Origin: Paludibacteraceae bacterium
Lineage (GTDB): Bacteria; Bacteroidota; Bacteroidia; Bacteroidales; Paludibacteraceae
Assembly: GCA_017628395.1 (NCBI GenBank)
Contig: JAGBZD010000033.1
Location: 1 to 58,102, forward strand
Reading direction: 5' to 3'
Length of the DNA stretch: 58,102 nucleotides
A program made the translations under genes and the position numbers. This document shows, one piece after another, positions 27,632 through 44,715 of the stretch (positions are counted from its first letter, which is position 1; every line of letters begins with the position of its first letter). The notes under the pieces were generated by a model. The model did not search any database. It was not told where the DNA came from and saw only the letters and a program-made list of their open reading frames with translations.

Positions 27632-28987
27632 ATGTCTATATACCATCACGATACCGACACTACAATCATCGCCCCTGCAACAGCCGCAGGTGGCGCAGTA
27701 GTCGTCGTTCGCATAAGTGGCCCAGATGCCATACCTATCGCCGATAAACTATTCCGTGGTCGCACCCAACTCGCAGATGCTAAGGGATATACGCTCCACT
27801 ATGGAGATATTGTATACCCTACTGGCGAGCCACTGGACGATGTTATCGTGGCACTCTTCCGCGCTCCACACTCCTATACCGAAGAGGATAGCGTGGAGAT
27901 CACGATTCACGGCTCTGAGTATATCACATCTGAACTTCTGCGACTGGCCATAGGCTACGGCGCGACGATGGCAACACCTGGCGAGTTTACACGCAGAGCA
28001 TTCCTCGCAGGAAAGATGGATCTCAGCCGTGCCGAGGCTGTTGCAGATATCATAGCATCTGACTCACAGTGGTCTCACAATGTGGCACGTACGCAGATGC
28101 GTGGCAAATACTCTGAGCGTCTGGGGGTAATGCGCCAGTCATTGTTAAAGCTCTGCTCGCTACTGGAGCTCGAGCTCGACTTCTCGGAGGAGGATGTGGA
28201 GTTTGCCAACCGCAGCGAACTCCGAGATATGCTAAAATCTATCAAATCGGAAGTCGAACAACTGAGATCATCTTTTGCTTTAGGTAATGTGCTTAAAAAC
28301 GGTGTTACCGTGGCGATTATCGGAGAACCTAATGTCGGCAAAAGCACGCTTCTCAACGCCCTTATAGAGGATGATCGCGCTATGGTTTCGGATATAGCTG
28401 GCACCACGCGCGATACCATTGAGGCCACGACAACTATCGACGGCATCCGCTATCGCTTTGTAGACACAGCAGGTCTACGCACCACGGAGGACAAGCTTGA
28501 GCAGATGGGTATCGACCGCACATATCGCGCTATTGAGAACGCTCAAATTATACTCCACATAGCCGCTGCCGACAACCCGTTTTTTGACAAAGTATCGGTA
28601 GATATGCAACAGAAATATATTCGGGTTATCAATAAGATAGATAAGCTTATATCAACCGACAATATAGATAGTGATACTACATTGATGATATCTGCTAAGG
28701 AGGGTATTGGCATCGATGCACTACGCACCGCACTGCGCGAATGCACCGACACAAGCCATATAAACAGCAGCTCGATTGTCGTCACAAATATGCGCCACTA
28801 CGCCGCATTGGAGCGTGCTGCGGAGAGTATCGGCATGGCATTAACAGCGATGGATAACGACCTCCCATCCGACTTACTGAGCGAAGATATCCGCCAAACC
28901 CTACACCACTTAGGCGAAATCACCGGCGACATCACCTCCGACGACATCCTCCACACCATCTTCTCCACATTCTGCATCGGAAAGTAA
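27632..28987 (+). CDS. mnmE: tRNA modification GTPase MnmE
   Basis: With MnmG it forms the 5-carboxymethylaminomethyl group at U34 of certain tRNAs. 451 aa. It has an N-terminal tetrahydrofolate-binding domain (AGGAVVVVRISG), a helical domain, an inserted G domain with 'GEPNVGKSTLLNAL', 'DIAGTTRDTIE' and 'DTAGLR', and the C-terminal 'FCIGK' whose Cys is catalytic. Last gene of the parAB run, followed by a terminator and then the mobile region. Confidence 0.95.
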   Translation: MSIYHHDTDTTIIAPATAAGGAVVVVRISGPDAIPIADKLFRGRTQLADAKGYTLHYGDIVYPTGEPLDDVIVALFRAPHSYTEEDSVEITIHGSEYITSELLRLAIGYGATMATPGEFTRRAFLAGKMDLSRAEAVADIIASDSQWSHNVARTQMRGKYSERLGVMRQSLLKLCSLLELELDFSEEDVEFANRSELRDMLKSIKSEVEQLRSSFALGNVLKNGVTVAIIGEPNVGKSTLLNALIEDDRAMVSDIAGTTRDTIEATTTIDGIRYRFVDTAGLRTTEDKLEQMGIDRTYRAIENAQIILHIAAADNPFFDKVSVDMQQKYIRVINKIDKLISTDNIDSDTTLMISAKEGIGIDALRTALRECTDTSHINSSSIVVTNMRHYAALERAAESIGMALTAMDNDLPSDLLSEDIRQTLHHLGEITGDITSDDILHTIFSTFCIGK

Positions 28988-29057: not shown

Positions 29058-29170
29058 GTTTGCACAAGCATCGTTGTTAATCGTTGCTAAGCCTTTTTAC
29101 GCCTGTTTTTGTACCTCCTGTGTACCTCGCAAACCGAAGTGCGAAATTTCATTGGTCAGATGACGGAGAA

Positions 29171-29200
29171 GTTGGTACGCATTGGTACGCTGTGGTACGC
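29171..29200. repeat. Three tandem 10-bp repeats (TGGTACGC)
   Basis: GTTGGTACGC, ATTGGTACGC and TGTGGTACGC follow one another with an exact 10-bp period, one helical turn, 38 nt before the zinc-finger/HTH gene. Two GTACCTC words lie just upstream (about 29110-29127). They look like binding sites for that protein or arm-type sites for the integrase. Confidence 0.6.
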
Positions 29201-29237
29201 AATGAAACAGATTTGGCGAACTAAAAAGAGAATTAAA

Positions 29238-30131
29238 ATGGCTAGTAACATTGACATTCAGAAAAAATGCGAGTGGTGCGGTGTGATTTTTACCGCACAC
29301 AAGACCTCTACTGCCTACTGTTCTCACAGGTGTGCAAACCTTGCATACAAGGAGAGATTAAGGAAAAAGAGAGTACAAGAGTTTCAACTCAAATTTGATG
29401 AAGAGGTAAAGCCTCATTCTGAAAAGGAGTTCTTAACACCAACCGAAGTGTCTGCATTTTTAGGTGTCGGGAGAACTTCAATCTACCGTTACATTAGGTT
29501 TGGCAAAATTAAGGCTGTTAGATTTGATGGTAAGACACTCATAAGGCGATTAGACATCGATAAAATGTTTGACTATATCACTGTGAGTGAAAAGAACAAG
29601 CCAAAAGAAAAAGTCCCCATCACCGACTTCTACACCACAGCCGAGATTAAAGAGAAATTTGGCGTTAAGGAATCGTGGATTTATGAGATTGCGAAGGAGC
29701 ATAATATCCCTCGCACCTTCAATCGTGGCAGAACCTATTGGAGCAAGAAACATATCGATTCCTACTTTGCCAAGAAAGCACCTGATGCGAGTATCACAGA
29801 GTGGTACAGCGTGGCAGAGTTGCAAGAGAAGTTCGGTATGACGCTATCGGCAATCTACACCTTTGTATATAAGAATGTAATCCCCAAGCGCAAGGAGGGT
29901 AAGATAGTCTATTACTCGAAAAAGCATTTCGACATAGCCAAAGGTATCGCCACACCCGAAGAGCCGCAATACTATACCATCCCCGAAGCGATGGGAAAAT
30001 ACAACCTCACTCGCGACCAACTCTACCACTATGTGAAGTATCACAACATCACTCGCATCAAGGTTGGCAAGTACACCAAGATTCTACGCTCCGAACTCGA
30101 CAAATTCTTTGAGCCACCGAAGATTGAGTAA
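29238..30131 (+). CDS. Zinc-finger protein with four HTH (MerR/HTH_17-like) modules
   Basis: A 297-aa DNA-binding protein. Residues 11-32 form a Cys4 zinc knuckle (CEWC ... CSHRC). Four excisionase-type helix-turn-helix repeats follow at about 65-112, 130-176, 188-234 and 245-291. Each has the pattern (F/Y)xTxxEhxxxhGhxxxxIYxxhxxxxIP...hxxxDhDxhF. The ATG at 29238 is chosen because the open frame upstream runs through the 10-bp repeats and begins at a TTG. The integrase follows after 85 nt, so a role in excision or element control is likely. Multi-module proteins like this occur next to integrases in Bacteroides elements, but the function is not established. Confidence 0.75.
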   Translation: MASNIDIQKKCEWCGVIFTAHKTSTAYCSHRCANLAYKERLRKKRVQEFQLKFDEEVKPHSEKEFLTPTEVSAFLGVGRTSIYRYIRFGKIKAVRFDGKTLIRRLDIDKMFDYITVSEKNKPKEKVPITDFYTTAEIKEKFGVKESWIYEIAKEHNIPRTFNRGRTYWSKKHIDSYFAKKAPDASITEWYSVAELQEKFGMTLSAIYTFVYKNVIPKRKEGKIVYYSKKHFDIAKGIATPEEPQYYTIPEAMGKYNLTRDQLYHYVKYHNITRIKVGKYTKILRSELDKFFEPPKIE

Positions 30132-30216: not shown

Positions 30217-31218
30217 ATGACACTAACTTGCACAAATGTAACCTTGCGCCAAAAGGCGTTACGCAACGACCGTATCTCACTCTATTTGGATTACTACCCT
30301 GCAATCCGTAACCCCTACACGATGAAAATGAGCCGCCGAGAGTTCCTCGGCATCTACCTCTATGCCAAGCCACGCAACGAGCAGCAACGAATGTTCAACC
30401 AAGAGATGCTCAACAAGGCGGAGGCGATACGCTGTATCCGTGTGCAGTCGCTCATCAACGAGGAATTCGGCTTCCTCGACAAGAACAAGCAGAAGGTCGA
30501 TTTCCTCGCCTACTTCCGAGCAAAGGCACGCGAGCGATATGAAAAATGGGATTGCGTCTGCAACCATTTCGAGAAGTTCTGCGGTGGCAAATGCACCTTT
30601 GGCGATATCACCGTTGAACTGTGCGAAAAGTTCCGAGATTATCTACTGAAATGCAAGCAGATACATCATCCCAACTCATATATCAGTCGAAATTCGGCAG
30701 CGGGATATTACTCAACCTTCCGCGCCCTGTTGAAAATTGCTTATAAGGAGAAGATGTTACGAGAAAACCTCAATGACTTCCTTGAAAAAATCGAGTGGAA
30801 AGAGGTCAAGAAAGAGTACCTGACACTCGACGAGGTAAAGCAACTCGCCGCCACACCCTGCCGTATTCCTGTGCTGAAACAAGCATCGCTGTTTGCTTGT
30901 ATGACGGGACTTCGCATCAGCGACATACTCAAATTGCAATGGAGCGACTTTGAAATGGGGCCCGATCAGGGCTACTATATCCGCATCTGCACCGAGAAGA
31001 CCGAGACCGAGGCGACACTCCCCATCAGCCACGAAGCGTTGGAACTATGCGGTGAATGGGGCAAAGGATTGGTGTTCAAAGGACTCACTCGTGCAATGAC
31101 ACACCACCCACTCAAACAATGGATTGCCGAGGCTGGGATAAAGAAGAAAATAACCTTCCACCTCGCGAGTCATAGCATTTCTTCTTTTACGCTGAGAACG
31201 AGCGATTTACAGAATTAG
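30217..31218 (+). pseudogene. Tyrosine recombinase, truncated in the catalytic domain
   Basis: Integrase of the Bacteroides phage-integrase type. It keeps the arm-binding N-terminus, the SAM-like core-binding domain ('FGDITVELCEKFRDYLL') and the first half of the catalytic domain, including Arg I in 'ACMTGLRISDILKLQW'. Similarity stops after 'KKKITFH' (codon ending 31161), where the family continues with CxRHTFA, the GH box and the nucleophilic Tyr. Here unrelated residues run to a stop at 31218. Arg II, the GH box and Tyr are missing, so the enzyme should be inactive. The junction is the left edge of an AT-rich cargo. Confidence 0.8.
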
Positions 31219-31279
31219 AATTTACGACAGGTAACGATTTAGAAACGAGCAAAGTTCCCTTATCTGTCTTATTCTGCAT
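31187..31279 (-). CDS. Possible small ORF or leader next to the cargo junction
   Basis: A 30-codon ORF on the minus strand (MQNKTDKGTLLVSKSLPVV...). A TACCTTTG box lies just upstream on the same strand (about 31307-31314). It ends about 25 nt before the point where the truncated integrase loses similarity. It may be the beginning of a gene cut by the junction, or simply an upstream region. I do not recognise it. Confidence 0.25.
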   Translation of the reverse strand: MQNKTDKGTLLVSKSLPVVNSNSVNRSFSA

Positions 31280-31337
31280 TATTGAAAAGAACGCTTTATT
31301 CTGACTGCAAAGGTAGCAAATAATCTGAATACTTTAA

Positions 31338-31949
31338 CTATCTTAATTTCTTTAGTTCTAGATAAGCTGTCCCATCTGACAATCTATGATATTGTCTTAA
31401 TGTTTTTTCCAATCCATTTGCAAACTCTAATTGTATAAATGTAGGAACACTCATACTATTAAATTTATGATGAATAGTTTTCACTGATTGTATAGGATCT
31501 TCTGCATTAGAGACTTGCATATAAGCCGCATTATAGTAATGCCAAACTTTGCTATCTATCGATTGCTGTATTTTCTGTTTAATATATATTTGTTGCTCAC
31601 GTATGCGGTATGCAACTTTGAAGAATGCATCAATCTTTTCAAAGGTTTCTTGAGAAACAGCACCGACAATCAAATGAGAATACTTATTCCACTGATTTTC
31701 CTCACAAATTATTGCAGAATAATGCATAGGAGCTTCTTGTAAAGCTCCATTTATTATGCCCTCGGACATAACATACTCTATATTTCGTTCTATATCATCA
31801 ATTTGCAACAACAATATTGTAGCTGCATTACTTAACTCTTTCCTTTTATGACTGTGAAATTTCCAAAGAGCTATTACAATAGTGGCAATTACTGACACAA
31901 TCATTACAACAGTCTGAAAAAAGTTTGAATCCCAAAATGTATTTTCCAT
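31338..31949 (-). CDS. Single-pass membrane protein of unknown function (cargo)
   Basis: A 203-aa AT-rich gene. An N-terminal transmembrane helix ('TVVMIVSVIATIVIALW', about 13-30) is followed by a basic stretch and a long, mostly helical cytoplasmic domain. No family recognised. It is the last gene of the minus-strand cargo after the Mrr-like nuclease and PIN_8 nuclease. It could be a membrane effector or anchor in a defence locus, but only its position suggests that. Confidence 0.6.
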   Translation of the reverse strand: MENTFWDSNFFQTVVMIVSVIATIVIALWKFHSHKRKELSNAATILLLQIDDIERNIEYVMSEGIINGALQEAPMHYSAIICEENQWNKYSHLIVGAVSQETFEKIDAFFKVAYRIREQQIYIKQKIQQSIDSKVWHYYNAAYMQVSNAEDPIQSVKTIHHKFNSMSVPTFIQLEFANGLEKTLRQYHRLSDGTAYLELKKLR

Positions 31950-32093
31950 AAATCATTCTTTAGTTAAACTCGTGTTTTTCTGACAAAGTTAAGGGTAAAC
32001 TCCTGCGTTTTGCAAATTTTCAACCCATTGATTTTTCGACACTTTATTCACACTTTTTGAAAAGATGTGCCACAACTATCTACAGCAGGATTT

Positions 32094-33530
32094 TTAGTCT
32101 TTTTTGTACAAGCGTTTGGCTTGTTCGATATCAATGTGTGCTTTTTTACCATGCTTCTCTAAAAGATATAGAAGGTGTCCACCATTTAGTAGAGTGATTG
32201 GTTTCCCTTTTGCAAAATTGTACGAATCAGAGCCATAGTCAGAAGTGGTTATCAATATCCCTTTGTTTGCACCTTCGTTTATTACTGTTCCATACAAATC
32301 TCTAACGGCAGAAACTCCCACAGTGTTAGTATATCTTTTGGCTTGAATTACAATTTTACCTCCTCGTATTGGGTCAGGGTCAAATGCTATGGCATCTACA
32401 CCCCCGTCACGACTTGCCTGTGTTATCTTTACCTCTCCTCCATTGTTATTAAATTCCATGTCGAATAACTCTCGAACTAAATGCTCGAACTCTTCCCAAT
32501 CCATTGTTGCAAGATTAGTAGATGAATCAGTAGAAACATTATGACTATCCACAAATCTTTTATCATCTTTACTCATCTGCATAATAGGTACAATAGGAGA
32601 ATAGTCATATAATTTTGCTCCTACGACACCTTTTAGATGTTTGAAACAAACTTTAGCATCTACATACCTTAATTCTACATTGTTGAATTCCTCTCGGCGA
32701 ACCGATAACGACAATATGCAATTATCTTCCAATTTTCCTGTTCCTGCATTTCTAACTTTCACTCTTCCGTTAAAGCATACCGATGATATTCTCCTCAAAT
32801 AATCATAATGGAATATCTCAGCAATAGTCCTGAGTGTAATTCTATAAATTAATTCTTCATACAGTTTCTTTAAGGCTGTTTGCGAAAGTAATTTATCAAA
32901 TTCGTTTGGGTCGTACTCCTTAATCTTAGGGCATTCTTCCAATGTGGGTAAATAGTATTCTGCAATAGCAACTTGATTATTACTATTGTATTCAATAGTT
33001 GGTTGGCAAGACCACTCAAAAGGATAAAATGAATCTTTTAACAAATAGCATAGATATTTTACTGTTTCATCTTCGTTTTCTTCGTATTGATTCCTAAGTA
33101 GGCATACATAATCGACCTTTTTCTGCTGCTCTATATTGAATGACTCTGAATATTGTTGATACTTATTCTCAATAACTTGTATTTTTCCATTATAGTATTC
33201 CCTATCTTCATTGGCATCTGTAGTTTTCAGTATCTCTTTATACTTACCCACGGTTGTGATCTGGTCGCCTTTTATAAATTTACAATATGGTATATTAAGA
33301 TGAAATCCATAAGAGCCATCTTTCAGTGAATCATAATCCTTAATGTAATATATATCTTCTATTCTTTTGCTGTAGATCTCTTCCAAGTAATATGGAATAA
33401 TATAATCAGAAATTGCTTGAGCAATAATATGATAATCCTTGTATCTATAGTACAAACCATTTAATCCTCCAAGAGGTTTGCCATCTTGTACTTGTTTCCT
33501 AATCTTATTGATCTTAAGGTTATCTTTCAT
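32094..33530 (-). CDS. Mrr-type restriction endonuclease (PD-(D/E)XK)
   Basis: A 478-aa protein. Residues 1-335 are a large unassigned N-terminal region, probably the target-recognition or sensing part. Residues 343-460 form an Mrr_cat nuclease domain: 'MDWEEFEHLVRELF', then 'ASRDGGVDAIAFD' (catalytic D379), 'GKIVIQAKRY' (Q396-x-K398) and 'VSAVRDLYG', 'KGILITTSDYG'. The QxK form is typical of Mrr-like enzymes, many of which cut modified DNA. No methyltransferase lies beside it, which fits a modification-dependent or solitary nuclease. Low GC marks it as recently acquired cargo. Confidence 0.8.
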   Translation of the reverse strand: MKDNLKINKIRKQVQDGKPLGGLNGLYYRYKDYHIIAQAISDYIIPYYLEEIYSKRIEDIYYIKDYDSLKDGSYGFHLNIPYCKFIKGDQITTVGKYKEILKTTDANEDREYYNGKIQVIENKYQQYSESFNIEQQKKVDYVCLLRNQYEENEDETVKYLCYLLKDSFYPFEWSCQPTIEYNSNNQVAIAEYYLPTLEECPKIKEYDPNEFDKLLSQTALKKLYEELIYRITLRTIAEIFHYDYLRRISSVCFNGRVKVRNAGTGKLEDNCILSLSVRREEFNNVELRYVDAKVCFKHLKGVVGAKLYDYSPIVPIMQMSKDDKRFVDSHNVSTDSSTNLATMDWEEFEHLVRELFDMEFNNNGGEVKITQASRDGGVDAIAFDPDPIRGGKIVIQAKRYTNTVGVSAVRDLYGTVINEGANKGILITTSDYGSDSYNFAKGKPITLLNGGHLLYLLEKHGKKAHIDIEQAKRLYKKD

Positions 33531-33557
33531 AATTGCTGGACATTTGTAGTTTGTGTG

Positions 33558-33680
33558 TCAATATTGCAGACTATCATTAACATGCACTTTGCCATCGTGA
33601 GCAGCGTTATTACCCACCTTACGCACATAGTGAACTGCCATCATCACACGCTCATCACCGATGAACTCACGAGTTTTAAA
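33558..33680 (-). pseudogene. Relic of a DUF4145-type (HsdR-like) coding region
   Basis: About 40 codons on the minus strand read ...FIGDERVMMAVHYVRKVGNNAAHDGKVH... before a TGA. The 'hHYVRKVGNNAAHDGKV' core matches DUF4145, found in type I restriction HsdR-related and defence proteins. There is no start codon, and the frame is closed shortly upstream. It sits in the gap between the PIN_8 and Mrr genes and is richer in GC than both. Probably the remains of an earlier cargo gene. Confidence 0.6.
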
Positions 33681-33703
33681 TAGTAGAGTTGGGTTTCATT
33701 GAA

Positions 33704-34858
33704 TTATTGTTCGCCCTCTAAATCATTATTTCTCGGTGTAATAATCCGAGCTATTTCTGCTCTTCGTTGTTCAAATTCTTCTATTATGTCATCCTTTTGA
33801 GGAATCCCCATCAAAGTAGTTGGAGTAATGGTTGGTATTGCAATAGAACTTGATATTTGTTCTTGCATTCTTTTCATAGACGCAGAATATTGTCCTAATC
33901 TATCAGCAAATTCCCTAATTGCATCGAAGTTAATCCCACTAAAAATATTCCCATAATGCGCTCGCTCGTTGCGTCGAATTATTTCTGATTTAACTTTCTC
34001 AACCTCATTGATGGTCTTTTGACTCACTTTAAGTTCCTTATTTCGCTTTGCGTACTCTAAGAATCTACCACTGTCATATATCAATATGCTTTGCCCTGTA
34101 TTGTCTGTGAATTCTTTTATTAACTCCTTTCGTGGAGAGTGTTTACCCTCAACTTTAACCCACCAATCGGGTTTATGGTCATCAGTTATAAAGATTACAC
34201 TTTTTGACTGCTCTTTGCAATGATGAATCGTCTGCTTCCAAACAATTAAATCTCCATACAAACTTCTTTTAGCCTTATCCTTTTTATTCTTTTCATCACA
34301 ATAACCAGGCGGAACTTGATTTGCATATCGCTTCTCGCCTTCCTTATACAACGCTTCTAAATCTTTATCCTCGAAATCATTTCCTACATGCCCATCAAAT
34401 AATTCCGTGATTGATTGGAGAATTTCGTCACCTTTTGAATAGTCAGGATGTGCCTTTTCTTGCTTTTCTAATGACTTTTTTATTGATTCGGCACATCTTT
34501 CTACCTTCTTCTTTATATCTTTGATGTTGATATATGGGTGGCGTGAATACTCACCCTCTAAAGAACTAATAACGCCTACCAATTCTTTTGAGAGTTTTTC
34601 TGCCAAAACATTATACGCTTTGGTATTCTTACGCATTATATCTTCTCTGCGCCGATGAAACTCAAGTCCGACTTGATAGGGTATCCACAAACGCTCTTGA
34701 TAAAACTTTATAACCTTTATAAACTCATTGCGAGCATCATCATTATAACGATATAAATTCAACAATACATTCGTATCAAACACAATCAATGAGTTTTCCC
34801 ATATTTCATTGATGCATTCTTCGGATAATTCGTAGTATTCTGCAAAACGGTTCTTCAT
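33704..34858 (-). CDS. PIN_8-domain nuclease (PIN-like, DUF4935 type)
   Basis: A 384-aa protein. The N-terminal 250 residues form a PIN-like nuclease of the PF18476 type: D28 in 'LIVFDTNVLLNLYRY', E66 in 'GLEFHRRR', D203 in 'YGDLIVWKQ' and D226 in 'VIFITDDHKPDWW' are the expected metal-binding acids. A helical insert with basic and acidic stretches lies at 85-180. The C-terminal 110 residues are helical. Such large stand-alone PIN_8 proteins are frequent in bacterial defence islands. It is first of the minus-strand cargo genes and has a -7 box upstream. RNA or DNA target unknown. Confidence 0.78.
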   Translation of the reverse strand: MKNRFAEYYELSEECINEIWENSLIVFDTNVLLNLYRYNDDARNEFIKVIKFYQERLWIPYQVGLEFHRRREDIMRKNTKAYNVLAEKLSKELVGVISSLEGEYSRHPYINIKDIKKKVERCAESIKKSLEKQEKAHPDYSKGDEILQSITELFDGHVGNDFEDKDLEALYKEGEKRYANQVPPGYCDEKNKKDKAKRSLYGDLIVWKQTIHHCKEQSKSVIFITDDHKPDWWVKVEGKHSPRKELIKEFTDNTGQSILIYDSGRFLEYAKRNKELKVSQKTINEVEKVKSEIIRRNERAHYGNIFSGINFDAIREFADRLGQYSASMKRMQEQISSSIAIPTITPTTLMGIPQKDDIIEEFEQRRAEIARIITPRNNDLEGEQ

Positions 34859-34935
34859 ATCTTTTCAAATACTTGATGAGCATAACGCTTCTTCTTTTTT
34901 CATATGTCTTGAATCAAGTTTCCTCAATTCTCCTA

Positions 34936-34943
34936 CAAAAGTA
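34936..34943 (-). promoter_or_regulatory. -7 box upstream of the PIN_8 gene
   Basis: The minus strand reads TACTTTTG (TAnnTTTG) about 78 nt before the ATG. No -33 element is seen at the normal distance. Confidence 0.4.
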
Positions 34944-34990
34944 CTAAAAAATCGTAATAATAAGCCCTTTACAGGCAAATTATTACGATT
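34944..34990 (-). terminator. Terminator of the mobilization operon
   Basis: AATCGTAATAAT (34950-34961) pairs perfectly with ATTATTACGATT (34979-34990), with an inner GCC/GGC. On the minus strand it is followed by TTTTTAG. It ends transcription of the mob genes just after the integrase relic and isolates the cargo. Confidence 0.75.
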
Positions 34991-35012
34991 GGGAAACACA
35001 ATTAAAATTGAA

Positions 35013-35075
35013 TTATTCTAGTTCTGCAAGAAAATCTGCTATCAAGGGTCTAAACTTTACCTTGATACTTGCCAT
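35013..35075 (-). pseudogene. N-terminal relic of a second integrase
   Basis: Twenty codons starting MASIKVKFRP, the standard N-terminus of a common Bacteroides tyrosine recombinase family (MASIKVKFRPS...). The similarity then breaks off and the frame closes. It directly follows the 279-aa mobilization membrane gene. It marks the right edge of the cargo insertion as the truncated integrase at 31161 marks the left. Confidence 0.55.
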
Positions 35076-35079
35076 AGGC

Positions 35080-35919
35080 TCATGGTTTTGATTTCTTGTT
35101 TGGGTTATCCTTTGGCTGTTGCTTGTTCTTGATGGACTTGGCTTTGCTCTCCTGTTCCTTTGCCGCTTGCCCTTTGAGTCTTGCTTGCTCTGCAAGGGCG
35201 GCTTGTTTGCGGACAGCCTCTTCATAAGTCTCCACATCTTCACGCATCAGCTCAATCTTTTGGTTATCTCGGTTGAGTTCACATATGTTCTCCAATGTGG
35301 CTATCTGCTCAGCCGAAGCATCGCCTTTCATCTTGATATAGCGGTATTTGAGGTCGTTATCTATGCGGTTTTGGTTGGGTTTCTCTGATATTATTATCCA
35401 AGCAAATAGCCCCAAAATCAGCATCGTTTCTATCACAATAGTCCAACAGACAAATGGTGTTTCAAAGCCAATTCTATGGTGCTTGAAATTGTGAACACCA
35501 TCCTCAATGGTTGTTTTCAGCTTCTGAACAAGCGTCTTGACCTCTTCAGATTTCTGTTCTTGATTCTGCTTTATTTCAGCTAATGAGTTTAGGATCTCGC
35601 TCGAAGATTGCGATTTATTGACAATCGCTTTTACATCCCTAACGCTCTCACCAATGGCACTAAAATTTGAATTGAGAACCTTAGTCTGTTCATCAAGTTT
35701 GCGGTCGGTATGTCGGCAATTAAGCCCTGTGGCATTGGCAACAAGTGCTTTAATCTCCTCTACTAATGCTTCATTAGCATCGTTATCAACAGCCGAACTG
35801 CAATTGTTCTGTTTAGCTTTCTGCAATTCGATTATACCTGTCTCGATTCTCTCCAAGCATCCGTAGATGCCTTCCATAAACGACTCGTGGTCGTTGTGGT
35901 TAAAGTTTTTATTACTCAT
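35080..35919 (-). CDS. Mobilization-associated coiled-coil membrane protein
   Basis: A 279-aa protein with a long helical N-terminal region (1-150), one transmembrane helix ('CWTIVIETMLILGLFAWIIIS', about 158-178), then a charged coiled coil and a Lys/Gln-rich tail. It lies 34 nt downstream of the relaxase on the same strand. Proteins of this build usually follow the relaxase in Bacteroides mobilizable elements. The biochemical role is unknown; it could link the relaxosome to the membrane. Confidence 0.7.
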   Translation of the reverse strand: MSNKNFNHNDHESFMEGIYGCLERIETGIIELQKAKQNNCSSAVDNDANEALVEEIKALVANATGLNCRHTDRKLDEQTKVLNSNFSAIGESVRDVKAIVNKSQSSSEILNSLAEIKQNQEQKSEEVKTLVQKLKTTIEDGVHNFKHHRIGFETPFVCWTIVIETMLILGLFAWIIISEKPNQNRIDNDLKYRYIKMKGDASAEQIATLENICELNRDNQKIELMREDVETYEEAVRKQAALAEQARLKGQAAKEQESKAKSIKNKQQPKDNPNKKSKP

Positions 35920-35953
35920 ATCAATTTGTTTTAAGTGTGAAAAATTTGTTTGC

Positions 35954-36886
35954 TTAGAATCTTATTCCTCGATTCTTTTTTCGCTCCTTCTTCTTTTGTT
36001 TCTGCCAAGAAGGTGGTTGCTCATCCTCTGGTGGAGCATCCGATGGAGCCAATAAGCCTAATCCGTTACTCTCAATAAGGCTATCCATAACGCTGAAATT
36101 TAGCTCTGCTTCTTGTCTTATCGGTCGTTGTTTAGGCTCTATTTCGGTATGCGTTTTCGGCATATCCCAACTTAATTGCTTATCAAGTTTTGAATAACTG
36201 AACTGACGGCTGACATCGGAAGCCTTGAAAGTGTAGCCATCTTTGGTGAAACTCAAGCCCTCATTCTTACCCGTTCTGCGGTTAATCTTGAAGGTCATTC
36301 CAATGCCTTGCTTTTGTAGTTGGTTGCCTAAGTCCCACCAAGTCCTACTGCGTTTCAAAGCTGCCTTAACTGCATTATGAATCTCGTACTTCACCCGTTC
36401 AGGAGCGTGGAGTTTCTGCACATTGGTCTTGCTCTTATCCTCCGCGTAGGTCAATCCGTATTTATCTTTCAGCTTCTTCGTAGCAATCTCATTTCGCTTA
36501 AAATCGTTCTGCGAAGAGATTACTTTACCATCATAGTTGATGCGATTATAGACCAAATGACAATGCGGATTGTCGGTATTATGATGCCTTACCAAGATGA
36601 ATTGAGTGTTCTTAATTCCCATAAGTTGCATATACTCCAATGCTATTTTAGCCATAAACTCATCGCTTAACCGTGGTGCATCTTCGGGCTTAAAACTCAG
36701 TGCAATGTGTCCTAACGGCTGCTTAATTTTCGGATTTAAGAGGCACTGACAGTTGAAACTATCAATCATCTCCTTATTTGTTCCGAGTAATACACCGTCC
36801 GATGCTATGATTTCGGCATCATCTTTTCCCATCACATAGCGTATGCATCCTCCAAAGGATTTTCCCTTCTTGATTTTGCCTATCAT
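35954..36886 (-). CDS. mobB: Relaxase / mobilization nuclease (MobP-type)
   Basis: Nicks oriT and pilots the transferred strand. 310 aa from ATG 36886, which overlaps the MobC stop by ATGA; an in-frame GTG at 36892 is less likely. PF03432 features are present: 'GKSFGGCIRYVMG' with the probable nucleophile Tyr17, and the three-histidine metal motif in 'HHNTDNPHCHLVYNRI' (101-116; H108, H110). A central segment 'TWWDLGNQLQKQGIGM' and a basic C-terminus (KKKERKKN) follow. The length is typical of Bacteroides MobB-like relaxases. It needs a type IV secretion system supplied in trans, since none is in the window. Confidence 0.88.
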   Translation of the reverse strand: MIGKIKKGKSFGGCIRYVMGKDDAEIIASDGVLLGTNKEMIDSFNCQCLLNPKIKQPLGHIALSFKPEDAPRLSDEFMAKIALEYMQLMGIKNTQFILVRHHNTDNPHCHLVYNRINYDGKVISSQNDFKRNEIATKKLKDKYGLTYAEDKSKTNVQKLHAPERVKYEIHNAVKAALKRSRTWWDLGNQLQKQGIGMTFKINRRTGKNEGLSFTKDGYTFKASDVSRQFSYSKLDKQLSWDMPKTHTEIEPKQRPIRQEAELNFSVMDSLIESNGLGLLAPSDAPPEDEQPPSWQKQKKKERKKNRGIRF

Positions 36887-37266
36887 CTGCACCTTTTTTC
36901 TGTAGCCTTGTAGTCGCTTAATACTTCTTTCAACTTGGCAAGCAGTTCCATTACTATATTCTTCGTGCGATAGAATCCCGTCTGATGCGACAGCTTCGTC
37001 AGCTGATTAAGGTTGTTTGCCATACCCGTAAGGTTGCGAATTATGGCTGCATCCTCAGCCGAATGTTTGGCAACAATTCGGGCATCAAAGGCTGAATCTC
37101 GGATGTACTCGGCAAGCGTGCGATTGGCGTTTTTGCTTCGGTGGCGTAGCTTCTCATAGTCGGGCTTTGAGAACTTCACCGTTACCGATTTTGTAAGTCG
37201 TTTCAAGGTGCTTACCTGTGGTCTGCCTCTGGGCTTGGGTTTCGTTATTTTCTTATTATTCATCAT
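36883..37266 (-). CDS. mobC: MobC-like relaxosome accessory protein
   Basis: A 127-aa basic protein. An N-terminal ribbon-helix-helix-like region ('SVTVKFSKPDYEKLRHRSKNANRTLAEYIRDSAF') is followed by the MobC signature 'IRNLTGMANNLNQLTKLSH'. It binds oriT DNA and helps relaxase nicking. The stop overlaps the relaxase start by 4 nt, giving tight coupling. The upstream gap (37267-37641) holds the probable oriT. Confidence 0.85.
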   Translation of the reverse strand: MMNNKKITKPKPRGRPQVSTLKRLTKSVTVKFSKPDYEKLRHRSKNANRTLAEYIRDSAFDARIVAKHSAEDAAIIRNLTGMANNLNQLTKLSHQTGFYRTKNIVMELLAKLKEVLSDYKATEKRCR

Positions 37267-37641: not shown

Positions 37642-38115
37642 TTACAACTTTCTCCACTGCTCAAAGTCGGCATCGTAGGTGTCGAGGTGTTGACGGGCTA
37701 TGTTCTCAAGCAAGCCCGAAACACTCATCTTTCGACCTCCGAGTTTGCGTACATAATCTTCAAGCCTATCCCTTACCTCGCAACTAACAAATACAGGTTT
37801 GCGGTCGATAATGATAGGTACTTTCAGATAGGCATTGCGGTACTCCTCCAATGAGAGTCTGCGTTGCTTACTGCTTACTCTGCGTTGGATAGTGGGCGGT
37901 TCCTCATCCACAGTTTTGACTTCTGCAATGGATTGTGGTTCGGCTACTGCCCCTCCCTCGATTACAGGGTCTGCAATACCATTCTTTGGATTGAAATCCT
38001 GCAATGCCATTTCAACACTCTTTTTAACTTCGGCATCTTTCGCTGCCGAGGGCGATACGCTCGGACTCATTATTTCAGTCAAAGCGTCTTTTTCAATTGA
38101 TTCGGTCTTTTTCAT
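37642..38115 (-). CDS. DUF3408 domain protein
   Basis: A 157-aa protein. Residues 1-85 are a low-complexity acidic region. The C-terminal 70 residues ('SLEEYRNAYLKVPIIIDRKPVFVSCEVRDRLEDYVRKLGGRKMSVSGLLENI') match DUF3408, a DNA-binding-like domain carried by many Bacteroides conjugative and mobilizable elements near the mob genes. It is probably an accessory or regulatory protein of mobilization. Separated from mobC by the oriT-like region. Confidence 0.82.
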   Translation of the reverse strand: MKKTESIEKDALTEIMSPSVSPSAAKDAEVKKSVEMALQDFNPKNGIADPVIEGGAVAEPQSIAEVKTVDEEPPTIQRRVSSKQRRLSLEEYRNAYLKVPIIIDRKPVFVSCEVRDRLEDYVRKLGGRKMSVSGLLENIARQHLDTYDADFEQWRKL

Positions 38116-38894
38116 ATTTGCAATTTTTTTTGGTTATCACTCCGGTCTCAGTGCGCACATTGACCAATTGTCGTGAGCAAAATAAGTGTGTATAGTTCGG
38201 CAGGTCAAGCAATTGGATTCGGTTAGACAATTAAGTATAGTTCTGCATCTTAGGTAGGTAAACGAATGGTGCGGACTGCTCAAAATTTCCACTATTGGGG
38301 GTGGTGAAGGGTGAATGAGGACTGAATCCTAAAATTAGAGAATTAAGGGCTTAATTTCGATGGTGGATAGACGGACTGCCGAAACATCGGGAGTTGGTCT
38401 ATCCTCAATCATGTTATTACTGATTAGTGGCAATCTGTTTCGGCTGTTCGGGCAAAAGTTTGACAGACGGATAAGTATCGGTTTGACAAACGACAATGCA
38501 GCGAACAAGATCCGAAACGGGCAGTCGCTTTAATTTCTAACTAAGTGTATAGGTGTGATAACTATACTTGATTTGTGAGTAAAACTATTAGCATAGGCAG
38601 TTAAAGTGCCACGAACTACGCCATATACTGCAACAGGCTTGATGAATCATTGTGATGTGATTACTCCTATATTTCTTTGCACCAACAAAACGGGTTAACA
38701 GCGAAAAGAAAAATGATTGTAACGATGGATATGATAGGTTTTAGTGGAGTGATTTATCGCACCGAATATGCAATGATATGTCAGTCTATGACACGTATAG
38801 ACACCCCCATTGCAGTATGATTTTTCGTGCTTTTATTTGCAGTGGAAATAACAACAGAACAAGAAAAATATGTATAACTAAAATATTGACAACA
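38116..38894. other. 779-nt non-coding stretch of the element
   Basis: No convincing gene. It contains GGATAGAC (38365-38372) with inverted GTCTATCC (38397-38404). A near-perfect direct repeat GTTTGACAGACG / GTTTGACAAACG lies at 38458-38469 and 38481-38492. The divergent regulatory sequences of the DUF3408 gene (left) and the first HTH gene (right) should be here. No clear TTTG/TAnnTTTG pair was found. Confidence 0.5.
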
Positions 38895-39206
38895 ATGAAC
38901 ATCATCAGTTTTGAAGAGAGAACCTTTGAGGGAATTGCTGCCAAGTTTGAGTACTTCGTGCAGCGAGTGGATAACCTTTGTCGCCGACACGGTGAGAAGA
39001 AAATTGACGAGTGGATGGATAACCACGATGTATGCCGAAAGCTGCGCATCAGTCCGAGGACATTGCAGACACTCCGTGATAACGGGACGCTTGCATTCAG
39101 CAAGATTGGCAACAAAACCTACTACCGTCCCGAAGATGTTGAACGCATTATCAAAATTGTGGAGGATAGACGCAAGGAAGCCAAATGGCGAGGTCGAACC
39201 ATTTAA
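38895..39206 (+). CDS. HTH_17-family DNA-binding protein (excisionase-like)
   Basis: A 103-aa protein from the ATG at 38895 (MNIISFEERTFEGIAAKF). The first 40 residues are helical. Residues 48-95 form the MerR-like HTH: 'WMDNHDVCRKLRISPRTLQTLRDNGTLAFSKIGNKTYYRPEDVERII'. Such small proteins precede integrase and mob modules in Bacteroides transposons and act as excision or transfer regulators. A paralogue follows after 44 nt. The open frame upstream to 38778 has no family similarity. Confidence 0.8.
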   Translation: MNIISFEERTFEGIAAKFEYFVQRVDNLCRRHGEKKIDEWMDNHDVCRKLRISPRTLQTLRDNGTLAFSKIGNKTYYRPEDVERIIKIVEDRRKEAKWRGRTI

Positions 39207-39250
39207 CCGACTGTAATGAGTAAAGTAACAACAAATAATACTTAGAGCCT

Positions 39251-39562
39251 ATGAACAATGAAATCAGAGAGAAAGACCATGAGTGGGTAAAGATGTTCCA
39301 CTCAAGCATCGACAGGCTATTGATGTCGATTGAGAAGATGTTTGAAAGCCGACAGCTGGGTGCGTTCAACGATGAACTGCTGACCGACAAGGAGGTCGCT
39401 CATATTTTGAAAGTGAGCCGAAGGACTTTACAGGATTACCGCAACAATGGTATCTTGTCTTACATTCAGGTAGGTGGTAAAATCCTCTACCGTACCTCCG
39501 ATGTGCAACGGACAATAATGAGTGGATTCAAGGAGGCATATAGGCTACGGGATAGTGGATAA
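39251..39562 (+). CDS. HTH_17-family DNA-binding protein (second copy)
   Basis: A 103-aa paralogue of the preceding gene: an N-terminal helical part, then 'LLTDKEVAHILKVSRRTLQDYRNNGILSYIQVGGKILYRTSDVQRTI'. Tandem pairs of this size are usual in Bacteroides mobilizable elements and probably act together on excision or transfer promoters. Followed 16 nt later by a perfect inverted repeat that terminates minus-strand transcripts converging on it. Confidence 0.8.
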   Translation: MNNEIREKDHEWVKMFHSSIDRLLMSIEKMFESRQLGAFNDELLTDKEVAHILKVSRRTLQDYRNNGILSYIQVGGKILYRTSDVQRTIMSGFKEAYRLRDSG

Positions 39563-39577
39563 TTGCCAAAAAAGAAT

Positions 39578-39610: not shown

Positions 39611-39616
39611 AACTAT

Positions 39617-39879: not shown

Positions 39880-40191
39880 TTAGTATGTCAAGGCGAATTT
39901 CAATCCGACTGCCTCCGAAATCATAATGAATGTAGATAGCTGCATATCGGTTTCTCCTTTTTCAAGCATAGCCACATACTCACGCTTCTTGCCAATCTTA
40001 TCTGCAAGCTGCTGTTGGGTAATTCCTGCTGATTTGCGGGCGTTCTTCAACACCTCGGCATAATACCAGGCACGAGACTTCGCATCGAACTCATCACGCG
40101 AAGCAGTACCCTTTGCTCCGTACTCATCGACAAACATGTCCTCTGTGGTAGGAAGATGTTTGAGCTTGTTAATGTCAATCTTTGGTCTCAT
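39880..40191 (-). CDS. higA: HigA-like XRE antitoxin
   Basis: A 103-aa protein with a Cro/C1-type HTH in its C-terminal half ('LKNARKSAGITQQQLADKIGKKREYVAMLEKGETDMQLSTFIMISEAVGL'). The N-terminal region ('TTEDMFVDEYGAKGT') probably contacts the toxin. The start overlaps the toxin stop by 4 nt. In HigBA systems the toxin gene comes first, as here, and the antitoxin represses the shared promoter. Confidence 0.85.
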   Translation of the reverse strand: MRPKIDINKLKHLPTTEDMFVDEYGAKGTASRDEFDAKSRAWYYAEVLKNARKSAGITQQQLADKIGKKREYVAMLEKGETDMQLSTFIMISEAVGLKFALTY

Positions 40192-40520
40192 TGCTGTAAA
40201 CTGTTTAAAATTTGTTCTGCTTTTTGTATCTCTTTCTTATAGTCCTTTGTGGACTTCTTCATAAAACCATTCAAAAGAAGTATCTGCTCGGCTTCAATGA
40301 AGTTATCGTGGTCAATGGTGAAGAGGATTACTCTATACTCATTACCTACAGATATGCGCAACTCATAGAAATCTGTATCTACAAGTTTCTTTACCAACTT
40401 GGTATTTACGACCTTTACATCTGCTAAAATGTTCATCGCATATTTGACCTTGTTCTGAACATTTGCAGGCAGTGAGTTGTAAAACTCATCGAATTCTGTA
40501 CTTCTTATCATAGTTCTCAT
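40188..40520 (-). CDS. higB: HigB-like RelE-superfamily toxin
   Basis: About 110 aa from the ATG at 40520 (MRTMIRSTEFDEF). It is a ribosome-dependent mRNase of the phage-derived Gp49/HigB type: 'NVQNKVKYAMNIL', 'TDFYELRISVGNEYRVILFTID', 'ILLLNGFMKKSTKDYKKEIQKAE'. The GFxKK(S/T) block and the C-terminal basic helix are the family signature. An ATG at 40538 also exists but overlaps the -7 box at 40525-40532, so it is unlikely. It forms a toxin-first operon with higA. Confidence 0.85.
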   Translation of the reverse strand: MRTMIRSTEFDEFYNSLPANVQNKVKYAMNILADVKVVNTKLVKKLVDTDFYELRISVGNEYRVILFTIDHDNFIEAEQILLLNGFMKKSTKDYKKEIQKAEQILNSLQQ

Positions 40521-40524
40521 GTTG

Positions 40525-40555
40525 CAAATGTAATACATTTATTACATTTTACAAA
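40525..40555 (-). promoter_or_regulatory. higBA promoter with palindromic operator
   Basis: On the minus strand TTTG (40552-40555), 19 nt, TACATTTG (40525-40532) is an excellent Bacteroidota promoter. The spacer and -7 box contain the inverted repeat TGTAAT-ACATTT-ATTACA (40529-40546). It lies exactly where a dimeric HigA/HigBA repressor would block RNA polymerase. Confidence 0.7.
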
Positions 40556-40957: not shown

Positions 40958-41869
40958 TTAAAATTTCAAACTCCAACCATAACACCATTGATTTAACTTC
41001 TCAATGGATGCCATATTATTAAAATAATCCAAATCAGGCATTCGTAGAACTTTAACTTGACTTTTTGAGTCTATTTTTTCCAATTCTTTCACGGCCATCA
41101 AATATGGCACATTTGGCGTAGGGATTAAGACGCATACACGATATAAAAGTTTAAGTCTAAGAGTATAAATCACAAAAAAACCACAATAACGATTATCTTG
41201 TGTTAAATATATTCCATCTGGAATCGGAATGTTCTGCATTGTCCATAACCTATCTGGAACATGAAAGACATCTGGCTCTAATATTTGCTTTCTTAAAGAG
41301 TCATAATATTTGTCAAGTAAAAAAGTATAACCTGTTTTTGCAAAAAGTAGAAGATATGCATTCTTTAGTAAAGCTGCACTAATTCTGCGTTCGTTTCTTT
41401 TCAACGGCACATCTTCCACATTGACGACCTCATTAGGTAGTAATATATTATTGTGAAAATCAATCCAAGTATCAGGTTTATTTCTCTTTGTATCTACCAA
41501 TAATTTAATCGTTCTATCCTCATCTATTTGAAGATTGGCATTTAATAATTGACCATCCTTTTCAATACGAATTTTTCTTTCTGAACATGGTAAGAAAAGG
41601 CGATGTTCTCTAGTTGTAATCGCATTTAACAAATGAATGTCGATATCTGAGCCACAACGACTATTACATTTTCTGCATGTAAGAGCAATTCGATTACCAC
41701 CTAATGACTTTTGAGGGACATCTTCCTCTGTTAAGACATTCTTAACATCTTGCTCACTATACTCATTTAAACATATTGGACATAAATAATCTCCGTTACA
41801 ATTATTCTTTTTTACATATTGAAGATTACTATGCATTCTAATATAATATTCTTTTTTATCCATATTCAT
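40958..41869 (-). CDS. HNH-like zinc-ribbon protein (putative nuclease)
   Basis: A 303-aa AT-rich cargo gene. The N-terminus has two Cys pairs (C30-x2-C33 and C65-x2-C68) flanking 'LTEEDVPQKSLGGNRIALTCRKCNS', the layout of HNH_5-type endonucleases. The first catalytic His expected in 'T-x-E-H-(I/V)-P' is Asp here, so activity is uncertain. The remaining 220 residues are unassigned. ATG at 41869 or 41863, both just after a TACCTTTG -7 box. It may belong to a defence or mobile-intron-like function; only the zinc-ribbon part supports the call. Confidence 0.55.
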   Translation of the reverse strand: MNMDKKEYYIRMHSNLQYVKKNNCNGDYLCPICLNEYSEQDVKNVLTEEDVPQKSLGGNRIALTCRKCNSRCGSDIDIHLLNAITTREHRLFLPCSERKIRIEKDGQLLNANLQIDEDRTIKLLVDTKRNKPDTWIDFHNNILLPNEVVNVEDVPLKRNERRISAALLKNAYLLLFAKTGYTFLLDKYYDSLRKQILEPDVFHVPDRLWTMQNIPIPDGIYLTQDNRYCGFFVIYTLRLKLLYRVCVLIPTPNVPYLMAVKELEKIDSKSQVKVLRMPDLDYFNNMASIEKLNQWCYGWSLKF

Positions 41870-41925: not shown

Positions 41926-43116
41926 TTATACCATAGATCTCCGTACTATCAACCTATCCATATCCTCCGAAATCTTATCATCGGTCACTTTGGCATATCC
42001 CTGAGTAGTACGGATATTGGTATGTCCCATCATCTTTGCAATACTCTCCATTGGAACACCAGCTGATACAAGCAAGGTTCCGAATGTGTGTCTGGACTGA
42101 TGGTAGGACAAGTTATGCTTGAATTGGTGAGCAAATCCCAATTCGTGTATCTCGAACCAAATCATATCTCTACATGGCAATGGGAAGATTGGCTTGCTGT
42201 CATCTGTGGTATTGTACAGCGAAATAATCTGTTCGGCAATCGGGTGCAGTGGAATAAATGCCTCTACATCTGTTTTCTTACGGTAGGTTCTAATGTATTT
42301 GCGCCCTTCCGCTGTTGTTCCTATGTGATGAGGATATAATCGTTGCACATCTACATACGCTAAGCCACAAAAACAAGAGAAAACAAATGTCCGTCTTGCC
42401 AATTCTTGCAATGGATCGAGTTTTGGATGGTTCATAATATCCTGCAATTGACTTTTGCTTATGTACATCAATTTCTTTGGAGGCTTTTTCTCATACTGGA
42501 CATCTTCTATTGGATTGAAACGCAAGATGCCATTATCCACAGCCAAATAGACCAATCGTTTTAGCCAACACAAACAATGGTTCCTATATGATGGCTTATG
42601 CGGGTAGTTCATCTTCATATAGAGTATGAAGTTATTGCCAAACTCCTCTGTAATGTCGGTAAATAGCATATCCTCTTTGCCCAACGAATTGATATACTCA
42701 CGCAAATAGTGTTGATACATCTTTGATTGGCGATATGTAGATGTGGAGTCAATCTGTACGGAACGGATTTTAAGGTTTTCCCTTTCAACCTCACCGGCTT
42801 GCAATATGTATTTTGGAATATCTGAAACACCCGTAATGGTATTCTTTAGCAATTCGGCAGTAATGACACCATTTGCTTTTAGCAGACTATTGTAAGTATC
42901 ATCAATACGATTCTTATAGTCATTGAGCATACCATTGATTCTACTATTCTTTGTTTCTCCCTTCTTGCTGTTCCATTCATTAGGAGTGCAATAAAGCCCT
43001 GTCGCCAACACCGCAGCTTTGCCATCAATGGTTACTCTGCACATAATGGCAGTTGTACCATCAGCCTTAATCTTGCTGCGGTTAATGTAGTATAGTTGTT
43101 TATATGTACTTCTCAT
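41926..43116 (-). CDS. Tyrosine recombinase (integrase), intact
   Basis: A 396-aa full-length Bacteroides-type integrase: N-terminal arm-binding domain ('LYYINRSKIKADGTTAIMCRVTIDG'), SAM-like core-binding domain (about 105-205) and catalytic domain. It has HQSR (HxxR) in 'LSYHQSRHTFGTLL', the GH box 'MMGHTNIRTTQ' and the nucleophile in 'GYAKVTDDKI'. The first catalytic Arg is replaced: the box reads 'FSCFCGLAYVDV'. This substitution is known in the CTnDOT-like recombinase group, which remains active. It is 19 nt downstream of a second, broken integrase on the same strand. Probably the functional recombinase for this element or for a local inversion. Confidence 0.88.
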   Translation of the reverse strand: MRSTYKQLYYINRSKIKADGTTAIMCRVTIDGKAAVLATGLYCTPNEWNSKKGETKNSRINGMLNDYKNRIDDTYNSLLKANGVITAELLKNTITGVSDIPKYILQAGEVERENLKIRSVQIDSTSTYRQSKMYQHYLREYINSLGKEDMLFTDITEEFGNNFILYMKMNYPHKPSYRNHCLCWLKRLVYLAVDNGILRFNPIEDVQYEKKPPKKLMYISKSQLQDIMNHPKLDPLQELARRTFVFSCFCGLAYVDVQRLYPHHIGTTAEGRKYIRTYRKKTDVEAFIPLHPIAEQIISLYNTTDDSKPIFPLPCRDMIWFEIHELGFAHQFKHNLSYHQSRHTFGTLLVSAGVPMESIAKMMGHTNIRTTQGYAKVTDDKISEDMDRLIVRRSMV

Positions 43117-43135: not shown

Positions 43136-44210
43136 TTATAAGACTAATGTCATATCACTTGTTGCCTTGATGAATATATCCATATCATCGAACAACTTCT
43201 TAGGTGTTACCTTAGCATAAAGTTGAGTAGTGGTAAGGTTGGTATGCCCAAGCATTTTGCTGATTGTTTCTATTGGAACACCAGCTTCAAGCGTAATCAG
43301 ACTTCCGAAGGTATGACGCCCCATGTGATAGACCAAATCAGTCTTAATCCCGGCTAAATCCCTAAGTCCTTTCATATGCCTTCGCAGATTAGGGTGGTGT
43401 ATCATCGGGAATAACTCCTTGCGCTCATTACTGCGATATTTCTCTATCAGAGCAATAGCTTCAGGCAATAATTTTACTCTACCCAAATGCTCATTCTTTT
43501 TACGCAGATATTTCAGCCATAATGCACCATTGTCATCGGTATAAATGTTATCGTCTGTTATTGAAACAGCATCGGCATAGGGAACACCTGTATAGCAAGC
43601 AAACAAGAATAGATCCCTTGCAATATTATGTGTTACTCTGGATGCCGGAATTTCCAAATCTCGGATCTTTTCAAAGTCCTCACGACTTAATGCTCGTGGT
43701 GCTTTCCTGTTTTCTTTTGGAAGTTTGAAATTTACGAAATAGCGTTTTTCTGCATGACCTTCTTTGAAAGCCAATCGGCAAATCTTTTTGAGTATGGGCA
43801 GATAATGCCTTGCCGTATCAACAGCAAGACCTTTATCCTTCAATACATACTCCTGAAACTCATATGGTAAATGCTCATTCAATTGCCCGAAAGCCAAATC
43901 TTCAACCTTGAAACGCTTTTTGATAAACTCACCAAGATATCTGCGAGTATAGATATAGGTTGACATAGATGACTTGGCGACATCGATACCGATTCTCGAC
44001 TACATATCCTCAATATGAAATAGCCTCCTTGCTTTTGCCATTTAGTCGGCTTTCGCGAGGATTCCATAATTCTGGAGTACACGACAGCTTGCTGCTGAAC
44101 TGCGCCATCGTTCGGTTTACGGTAATTCGTCCCATGATGGGAGCCTTACCCAACTTGTCTAATCCGCTCCTTTTAAGGTAGAGCAATACCTTGAATTTTT
44201 CTACTTTCAT
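43136..44210 (-). pseudogene. Second integrase, broken by an internal out-of-frame deletion
   Basis: The N-terminal 63 codons (44210-44022, 'MKVEKFKVLLYLKRSGLDK...NGKSKEA') and the C-terminal part (about 43999-43136, 'SRIGIDVAKSSMSTYIYTRRY...') are in different frames, separated by about 20 nt. From my memory of homologues, roughly 50-60 residues between KSKEA and ARIGID are missing. The C-terminal catalytic domain is otherwise intact ('YHMGRHTFGSL', 'MLGHTNLTTTQLYAKVTP'), with Arg I replaced in 'ACYTGVPYADA'. An internal ATG at 43966 could still give a 276-aa protein lacking the arm-binding domain. Confidence 0.8.
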
Positions 44211-44709: not shown

Positions 44710-44715
44710 TTACAT

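Follow-up and report, generated by a model that had tools for sequence, protein, structure and literature searches.

What do two broken integrase genes, one on either side of a small block of nuclease genes, say about how that block arrived? The question is raised by a 58,102-nucleotide stretch from a Paludibacteraceae bacterium (assembly GCA_017628395.1, contig JAGBZD010000033.1), called the window here; it is contig C19 of a genome in 129 contigs that is 81% complete. The sequence-only reading of this DNA saw a slot between the two broken genes in which defence genes are exchanged, and proposed that the three genes inside could be an undescribed anti-phage locus. Comparison with relatives confirms what was observed, although the two integrase fragments turn out to mean something different, and the interpretation is partly supported. 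Positions 31161 to about 44481 are very probably a copy of an integrative and mobilizable element of some 13 kb with two tandem tyrosine recombinases, named E here. Most examined members of the E clade interrupt a tyrosine recombinase gene that belongs to another mobile element, and they do so where the catalytic [F/T/S/W]-H-x-x-R-H box is encoded. The features at the two ends of E are listed below; genomes, loci and contigs of the window's own genome carry G, L and C numbers.

30217..31160, plus strand: N-terminal part of intA, a tyrosine recombinase and the insertion target (Pfam; cut in the FHxxRH box)
31161..31322, no strand: left end of E, core at 31230-31250 (conserved DNA; probable recombinase-binding region)
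41926..43116, minus strand: tandem tyrosine recombinase A (Pfam; 84% amino acid identity to the G141 copy)
43136..44210, minus strand: tandem tyrosine recombinase B, broken into open reading frames (ORFs) 43136-43966 and 44010-44210 (Pfam, comparisons)
44222..44481, no strand: right end of E (homology to the C36 and G141 right ends; stops at 44481 against C36)
44476..45312, minus strand: right flank, a 77-amino-acid (aa) ORF and an HD-domain protein, not the missing half of intA

The plus-strand integrase at the left, intA, does lack its C-terminus. Its ORF (30217-31218, plus strand) carries Arm-DNA-bind_5, SAM-like and truncated Phage_integrase domains by Pfam, and it is cut inside its catalytic FHxxRH box at 31156-31173. 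An intact paralogue of 368 aa on contig C129 of the same genome, 98% identical in protein and 93% in DNA, shows where: the DNA homology between the two ends at window position 31160, within the box.

The DNA beyond the cut is conserved as well. When 200 genomes were searched with the cargo DNA, the sequence just 3' of intA was found conserved elsewhere, and in several other places it again adjoins an integrase cut at the same box. If up to 3 mismatches are tolerated, the left-end core, GGTAACGATTTAGAAACNAGC, has a single match in the window and none in 100 shuffles. Exact copies are present at 15 sites in 13 of 393 Bacteroidales genomes (the window's own included), with no match to the reversed-pattern control among the rows listed for those genomes, and in 4 IMG/VR contigs. 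The pattern matches and four further loci (L095, L189, L184, L181) make 23 left-end rows in 22 distinct contexts, the context of L121 being also that of L123. In 17 of the 23, window intA included, the N-half of an integrase runs up to the box. The flanking integrases are 27-98% identical to their best reference, and about 150 bp are conserved after the cut in different integrases. The junction reads CAY-N6-ARRCAY in 16 rows and CAY-N6-AGTCAY in 3 more (window, L127, L181). G427 and G325, from two different families (L126, L132), have a 4,480-bp block in common that is 99.84% identical and includes arsenic-type genes; in each it is joined at the box to a different integrase. The boundary of this ars cargo was also considered as a right end of E and rejected, since L126 and L132 diverge inside the ars-type cluster and mark the left end only. 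As a separate observation, L094 (7097-7506) has two divergent left-end copies, one directly after the other, next to a set of methyltransferase and HATPase-like genes.

In many relatives of E an integrase C-half is found at the other end. In G141, the missing integrase C-half lies about 21.7 kb downstream and begins with the same box; just before it come a tandem pair of tyrosine recombinases and an end sequence that is also present in the window. A recombinase B protein probe (E value at most 1e-80, 295 genomes) gave 16 matches in 11 genomes, and for 11 of these 16 the right end is followed by the C-half of an integrase. Together with 4 plasmid-collection records, 2 Prevotella records and 2 phage-collection records, the recombinase B set comes to 24 rows. 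Where recombinase B is at least 63% identical, 16 of 19 rows carry the C-half, 258-282 nt away from the point at which the recombinase B alignment begins (125 nt in L199, whose alignment starts later); L169 and L177 have box-like remnants only, and the remaining row, L178, is the window. No integrase C-half is found in the 5 rows at 48-56% identity (Segatella copri, the two Prevotella records and two genomes), and in an unrooted tree the C-half positives stand apart from the divergent rows, which group with the outgroup.

Some elements can be read at both ends. The N-half in G141 corresponds to residues 25-363 (58% identity) and the C-half to residues 342-402 (61%) of the intact L096 integrase; for G225 the figures are residues 49-428 (88.5%) and 420-477 (96.6%) of the intact L094 integrase. 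Each half was matched separately, and in both genomes the two overlap slightly at the box. The halves on contig 25 of G408 are also consistent, at lower identity (31% and 63%). The N-half of a target gene runs up to the left end of E, and a C-half begins at the right end. The two ends of E share AAGCGTTCTTT and GGTAAC/GCTAACGATTT-like repeats, and the core common to both junctions is TTCCACTGCTT in G141 and CATACCGC in G225; on G408 contig 25 only TTCCAT is shared, and the middle bases differ between the ends.

For recombinase B, a 138-genome sample of the phylum gave 2 matches besides the own genome at an E value of at most 1e-60, both 33% identical. Recombinase B also matches 10 unverified metagenomic “Bacteriophage sp.” records. 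In the two that were examined (L198, L199) the right end is joined to the C-half of an integrase, so they look like relatives of E. A phage origin of E was rejected, the left-end core having no match in phage records.

How could an element come to sit in such a place? TTYCAY-N6-MGNCAY is the DNA spelling of Phe-His-x-x-Arg-His, and CAY-N6-ARRCAY comes close to it, which means that a site could be available in many genes for tyrosine recombinases. The GGTAAC/GCTAAC-type subterminal repeats are predicted recombinase-binding sites; the pair would bind them, and recombination would take place within a short variable stretch of a site resembling CAY-N6-ARRCAY. The sequence itself shows the target gene cut within its catalytic domain. 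Insertion would part the box from the rest of that domain, so that the host element loses its integrase and is held in place, while E would gain a site that evolution cannot easily remove. E carries its cargo in a bay beside the left end. On balance we favour a wider reading, in which a mobilizable clade of the Bacteroidales has evolved to use the catalytic-site codons of rival tyrosine recombinases as its attachment site, hunts rival mobile elements, disables their integrases on arrival, and holds them in the chromosome as a protected home for defence and fitness cargo; since the target encodes an active site, hosts could not mutate it without losing mobility.

Many mobile elements have their homes in tRNA genes or housekeeping genes. 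The usual home of E would be the active-site motif of a rival recombinase, and that motif is conserved throughout a very large family of proteins. E would then offer a direct and testable instance in which one mobile element sterilises another, and some truncated integrases of gut Bacteroidales genomes may have arisen in this way. The findings also point to a recombinase pair whose target is unusual and yet widely available, and the left end together with the pair could serve as a marker for finding cargo bays.

The second broken integrase belongs to the interior of E, which is laid out as follows.

35045..35075, minus strand: MASIKVKFRP, first codons of intB, the accessory integrase of E, remainder lost (comparison with C64)
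35080..35919, minus strand: coiled-coil/transmembrane-like protein adjoining the mobilisation genes (comparison with relatives)
35954..36892, minus strand: MobA-type relaxase (PF03432, 1.8e-33)
36883..37266, minus strand: MobC/NikA-like protein (Pfam)
37642..38115, minus strand: DUF3408 protein (Pfam)
38778..39562, plus strand: two HTH_17 proteins, 38778-39206 and 39251-39562 (Pfam)
39880..40538, minus strand: Gp49-like protein and HTH partner, toxin-antitoxin-like (Pfam)
40958..41869, minus strand: HNH_5-like protein, right cargo bay (below the Pfam cut-off)

E thus has a relaxase and MobC, and no mating-pore family was found among the Pfam-scanned ORFs of 31161-44481. Recombinases A and B are about 30% identical to each other and stand side by side in the window, G141, G225, G408 and others. 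Arm-binding, core-binding and catalytic domains are present in the window's recombinase A and in recombinase B of G141. The order of cargo, intB, coil, MobA, MobC, DUF3408, HTH genes and recombinase pair is common to the window and G141, and is partly kept in C64 and in Segatella copri NZ_CP137558.

The minus-strand integrase had been described as reduced to MASIKVKFRP, and it is there. It is intact on contig C64 of the same genome (398 aa, MASIKVKFRPSTSENKEGT...), against which the homology of the window ends at 35045. It is also intact in G141, and in both C64 and G141 the order is a 220-aa methylase, intB, coil, MobA, MobC, DUF3408 and HTH genes. Both fragments are therefore true integrases when compared with intact relatives, and they are not symmetrical borders: intA is the insertion target, while the intB fragment is the remnant of an accessory integrase inside E, reduced to ten codons by what looks like a deletion.

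Several observations weigh against the reading of E as an element that homes to integrases. In six of the 23 left-end rows the element does not adjoin an integrase (L125, L127, L133, L134, L121, L123); L125 is counted here because its integrase match is 508 nt away from the core and does not run up to it. Neither junction motif is present in L125, L099, L134 and L095, although L099 and L095 are still at integrase boxes. Either CAY-N6-ARRCAY or CAY-N6-AGTCAY is still present in four of the six rows away from integrases, so target recognition probably works at the DNA level and is not exclusive to integrases. Some of the matches are close relatives, which means that the rows are not all independent. 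On the S. copri plasmid NZ_CP137558.1 (6723-25469) the left end is at an integrase and the right end is not. Excision, circle formation, transfer and recombination of E are predicted from sequence, and a defence function of the cargo is likewise deduced. Finally, the right flank of the window copy is the 77-aa ORF and not the C-half of intA; the window contig probably joins the ends of two insertions, by recombination or by mis-assembly of the metagenome-assembled genome.

The window copy is decayed. Recombinase B has one in-frame TAG, is split into its two ORFs and misses an internal stretch that contig C36 has; with recombinase B interrupted and intB gone, the copy is probably stuck. A C-half of intA (96% identical to the intact paralogue) is on C36, beside another right end of E that is about 93% identical to the window's over 43067-44481. 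Two such similar right ends in one genome (C19, C36), a C-half of intA on C36, and an assembly that is both fragmented and incomplete all fit a chimeric metagenome assembly, in which the left part of one copy of E was joined to the right part of another. However, homologous recombination between two copies gives the same picture, and the left junction type recurs in many other genomes, so it is not assembler-made. A chimera is a real possibility, though we lean slightly away from it, and it would concern the window copy only and not the clade.

Could the fragments be the product of ordinary decay, in which separate, unrelated deletions truncated the integrases of two mobile elements and left a cargo block between them? 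This would be the slot of the sequence-only reading with no specific mechanism. The state of intB and the broken recombinase B speak for this. Yet deletions would not halt, genome after genome, at the same codons of unrelated integrases, each then followed by a similar stretch of about 150 bp, nor would they leave the C-half of an integrase at nearly the same distance from the pair of recombinases each time. Taken as a whole this account is highly unlikely: it is strongly disfavoured for the left junction and stands for intB. Another route to a split gene is the suicidal integrase of the archaeal SSV type, by which E would integrate with the flanking integrase and split that gene itself. There is a precedent in the archaea, where integration divides the element's own integrase gene into N and C parts, but self-disrupting integrases are found only there according to a review (PMC8371274). 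An archaeal suicidal element splits its own integrase, whereas E sits between the halves of another element's and has its own pair. The order is N-half, E, C-half in the same reading direction, with the halves outside E, so that a circle of E would hold neither. Also, the gene downstream of the C-half in G141 resembles, by eye, that downstream of the intact L096 integrase, and E is flanked by integrases of many families, whereas the recombinase pair within it is common to the whole clade. This makes a suicidal integrase extremely improbable. There is, too, a very slim chance that the left-end DNA encodes a non-coding RNA guiding insertion, instead of recombinase-binding sites. Its 150 or so conserved bp include a TAnnTTTG-like box on the minus strand, a promoter-type motif, pointing toward the broken integrase. 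Against this, there is no convincing Rfam match, core-like repeats are also at the right end, and E encodes two tyrosine recombinases with arm-binding domains. A known RNA family at the ends of E was considered and rejected, as the two Rfam matches in 31000-35300 are far below gathering scores and neither is at the left end.

Among known elements, the CTnDOT/NBU family is like E in having Bacteroidota tyrosine recombinases with arm-binding domains. The ends of CTnDOT attachment sites carry different short segments, as those of E do; the family has one integrase, unlike the pair of E. NBU1 and NBU2 are listed at tRNA genes (PMC5704250). Closer to E are MTnPi1-3, the “Tyr duo” mobilizable transposons of Prevotella intermedia, which also have two tandem tyrosine recombinases, a relaxase and accessory cargo (PMC4755523). 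Their attachment site is given as TTAC/TTGC-N5-AA, with a 5-nt variable segment that the variable junction core of E resembles (Naito 2015, PMC4755523; PMC5704250). E matches the group in its two distantly related tandem recombinases, and it does not match this attachment site, which as published is not an integrase box (PMC4755523). MTnPi1-3 have a common primase family gene, where E has intB, coil and DUF3408 in conserved order. The probable MTnPi relatives in Prevotella nigrescens and oral taxon 299 (recombinase B 48-49% identical) have no integrase C-half at the right end. From these comparisons E appears to be a variant of the Tyr duo kind that is new by its target. One copy of CTnPi2-a is reported in an integrase gene (II_0226), like the target of E; it differs in being a conjugative transposon with its other copy in a tRNA gene, and it is presented as a single case (PMC4755523). 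No report of an element family targeting integrase HxxR active-site boxes was recognised among the papers listed by searches of the openly licensed literature.

What, then, does E carry in the window? The cargo is a block with a GC content of 32-37% (1-kb steps), compared to 44-52% at 23-29 kb and 40-48% from 46 kb on, and it is as AT-rich as had been noted.

31338..31949, minus strand: cargo, protein of 203 aa that by eye has a single hydrophobic segment, at the N-terminus (ORF)
32094..33530, minus strand: cargo, Mrr_cat type IV restriction-like nuclease, conserved central region (Pfam 1e-30, PADLOC)
33704..34858, minus strand: cargo, PIN_8 nuclease (Pfam 2.6e-65)
34854..34988, minus strand: leader/promoter region of the PIN_8 gene (similar DNA before unrelated genes in other Bacteroidales)

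All three genes described between the fragments (membrane protein, Mrr, PIN_8) are found as ORFs, the two nucleases with Pfam support, and the residues singled out in them (D379 and K398 of Mrr, D28 of PIN_8) are at their positions. The 203-aa protein has no Pfam match and one relative, 52% identical, in IMG/VR (L065). The Mrr protein matches the PADLOC model mREase_IV PDLC03663 over residues 160-465 (1.9e-47); it differs in a variable N-terminal region, and its activity is predicted only. Its family is broad (16 loci), and D379 and K398, of the PD-(D/E)xK type, are invariant in the 15 sequences aligned. The PIN_8 protein matches PF18476 over 227 of 227 positions (2.6e-65), and its relatives are scattered over plasmids and genomes, with 64 plasmid records and 6 loci outside the window. 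The IMG/VR scans gave no relative of Mrr or PIN_8; Mrr has 2 weak phage matches. In the literature on PIN_8, the first 12 of 252 matches are all plant papers.

Whether the three genes form one undescribed defence system is a matter of what keeps company elsewhere. They are adjacent, on the same strand, and in a bay that holds defence systems in other copies. They are never found together in the other loci: the 16 Mrr-family loci have no relative of PIN_8 or the membrane gene at E 1e-4, the 6 PIN_8 loci have no Mrr or membrane gene (one locus seen to 1.5 kb each side only), and the single locus with a membrane-protein relative has neither nuclease. The co-occurrence test took in these 6 PIN_8 loci rather than the neighbours of the 64 plasmid records. 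The gaps between the genes are 144 and 173 bp, and PIN_8 has a separate leader. Lack of co-occurrence elsewhere is what the sequence-only reading had named as a refutation; at the depth examined, the proposed three-gene anti-phage locus is thus very unlikely, and the genes are taken as separate defence genes because they do not co-occur.

The part of the earlier proposal that holds is the slot with changing contents. PADLOC was run on 5 of the 22 distinct left-end bays (G141, L122, G262, G140, L121), on C64, on NZ_OY725960 and on one right-bay gene of G141; the other bays were read by eye. Four of the five bays have matches: G141 has Hachiman and type IIG-like restriction genes, IMG/VR L122 has Zorya II, G262 has type IIG-like and SNF2-like genes, and G140 has a DUF4263/Shedu-like set. 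The bay of IMG/VR L121 had no PADLOC match, and arsenic-type and metabolic genes are seen by eye in others. Since the bay of E holds known defence systems elsewhere, independent defence genes are probable in the window too. Judging by position and families, Mrr, PIN_8 and the membrane protein are most likely independent anti-phage or anti-element genes. On C64 (L053 7100-9572), a retron type III-A reverse transcriptase and PRTase genes are found on the other side of a related element.

The leader of PIN_8 (34854-34988), with a TAnnTTTG-like box, has similar copies before unrelated genes in other Bacteroidales. A 20-nt part of it occurs at 7 sites in 6 of 101 genomes, own included, with 0 for the reversed control, and the leader has no Rfam match. 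It was considered as the other end of E and rejected, given the similar DNA upstream of unrelated genes. In two genomes (L061 5928-6272, L064 5951-6286) a small similar ORF, a possible partner, is directly upstream of PIN_8; it is absent in the window.

The host element, IME-A, is located 3' of a chromosomal gene.

27632..28987, plus strand: mnmE (trmE), chromosomal (ORF)
29109..30131, plus strand: HTH_17 repeat protein of IME-A (Pfam; 93% nucleotide identity to C129 from 29252 on)

The intA relatives are beside mnmE in 16 of 20 fetched loci (L020-L039), and 13 of these 16 also have an HTH relative. SGI1-type islands are found at the 3' end of trmE as well (PMC8409611); the parallel concerns IME-A and not E. 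A match of the HTH-repeat protein to mad1 in PADLOC (1.3e-18) probably reflects no more than the HTH fold. To the right of E, V-ATPase-like genes are seen by eye beyond the HD-domain gene. On C129 (L040 4649-6382), an ATPase and TOPRIM-like gene pair appears, by eye, to be the cargo of an intact mnmE element.

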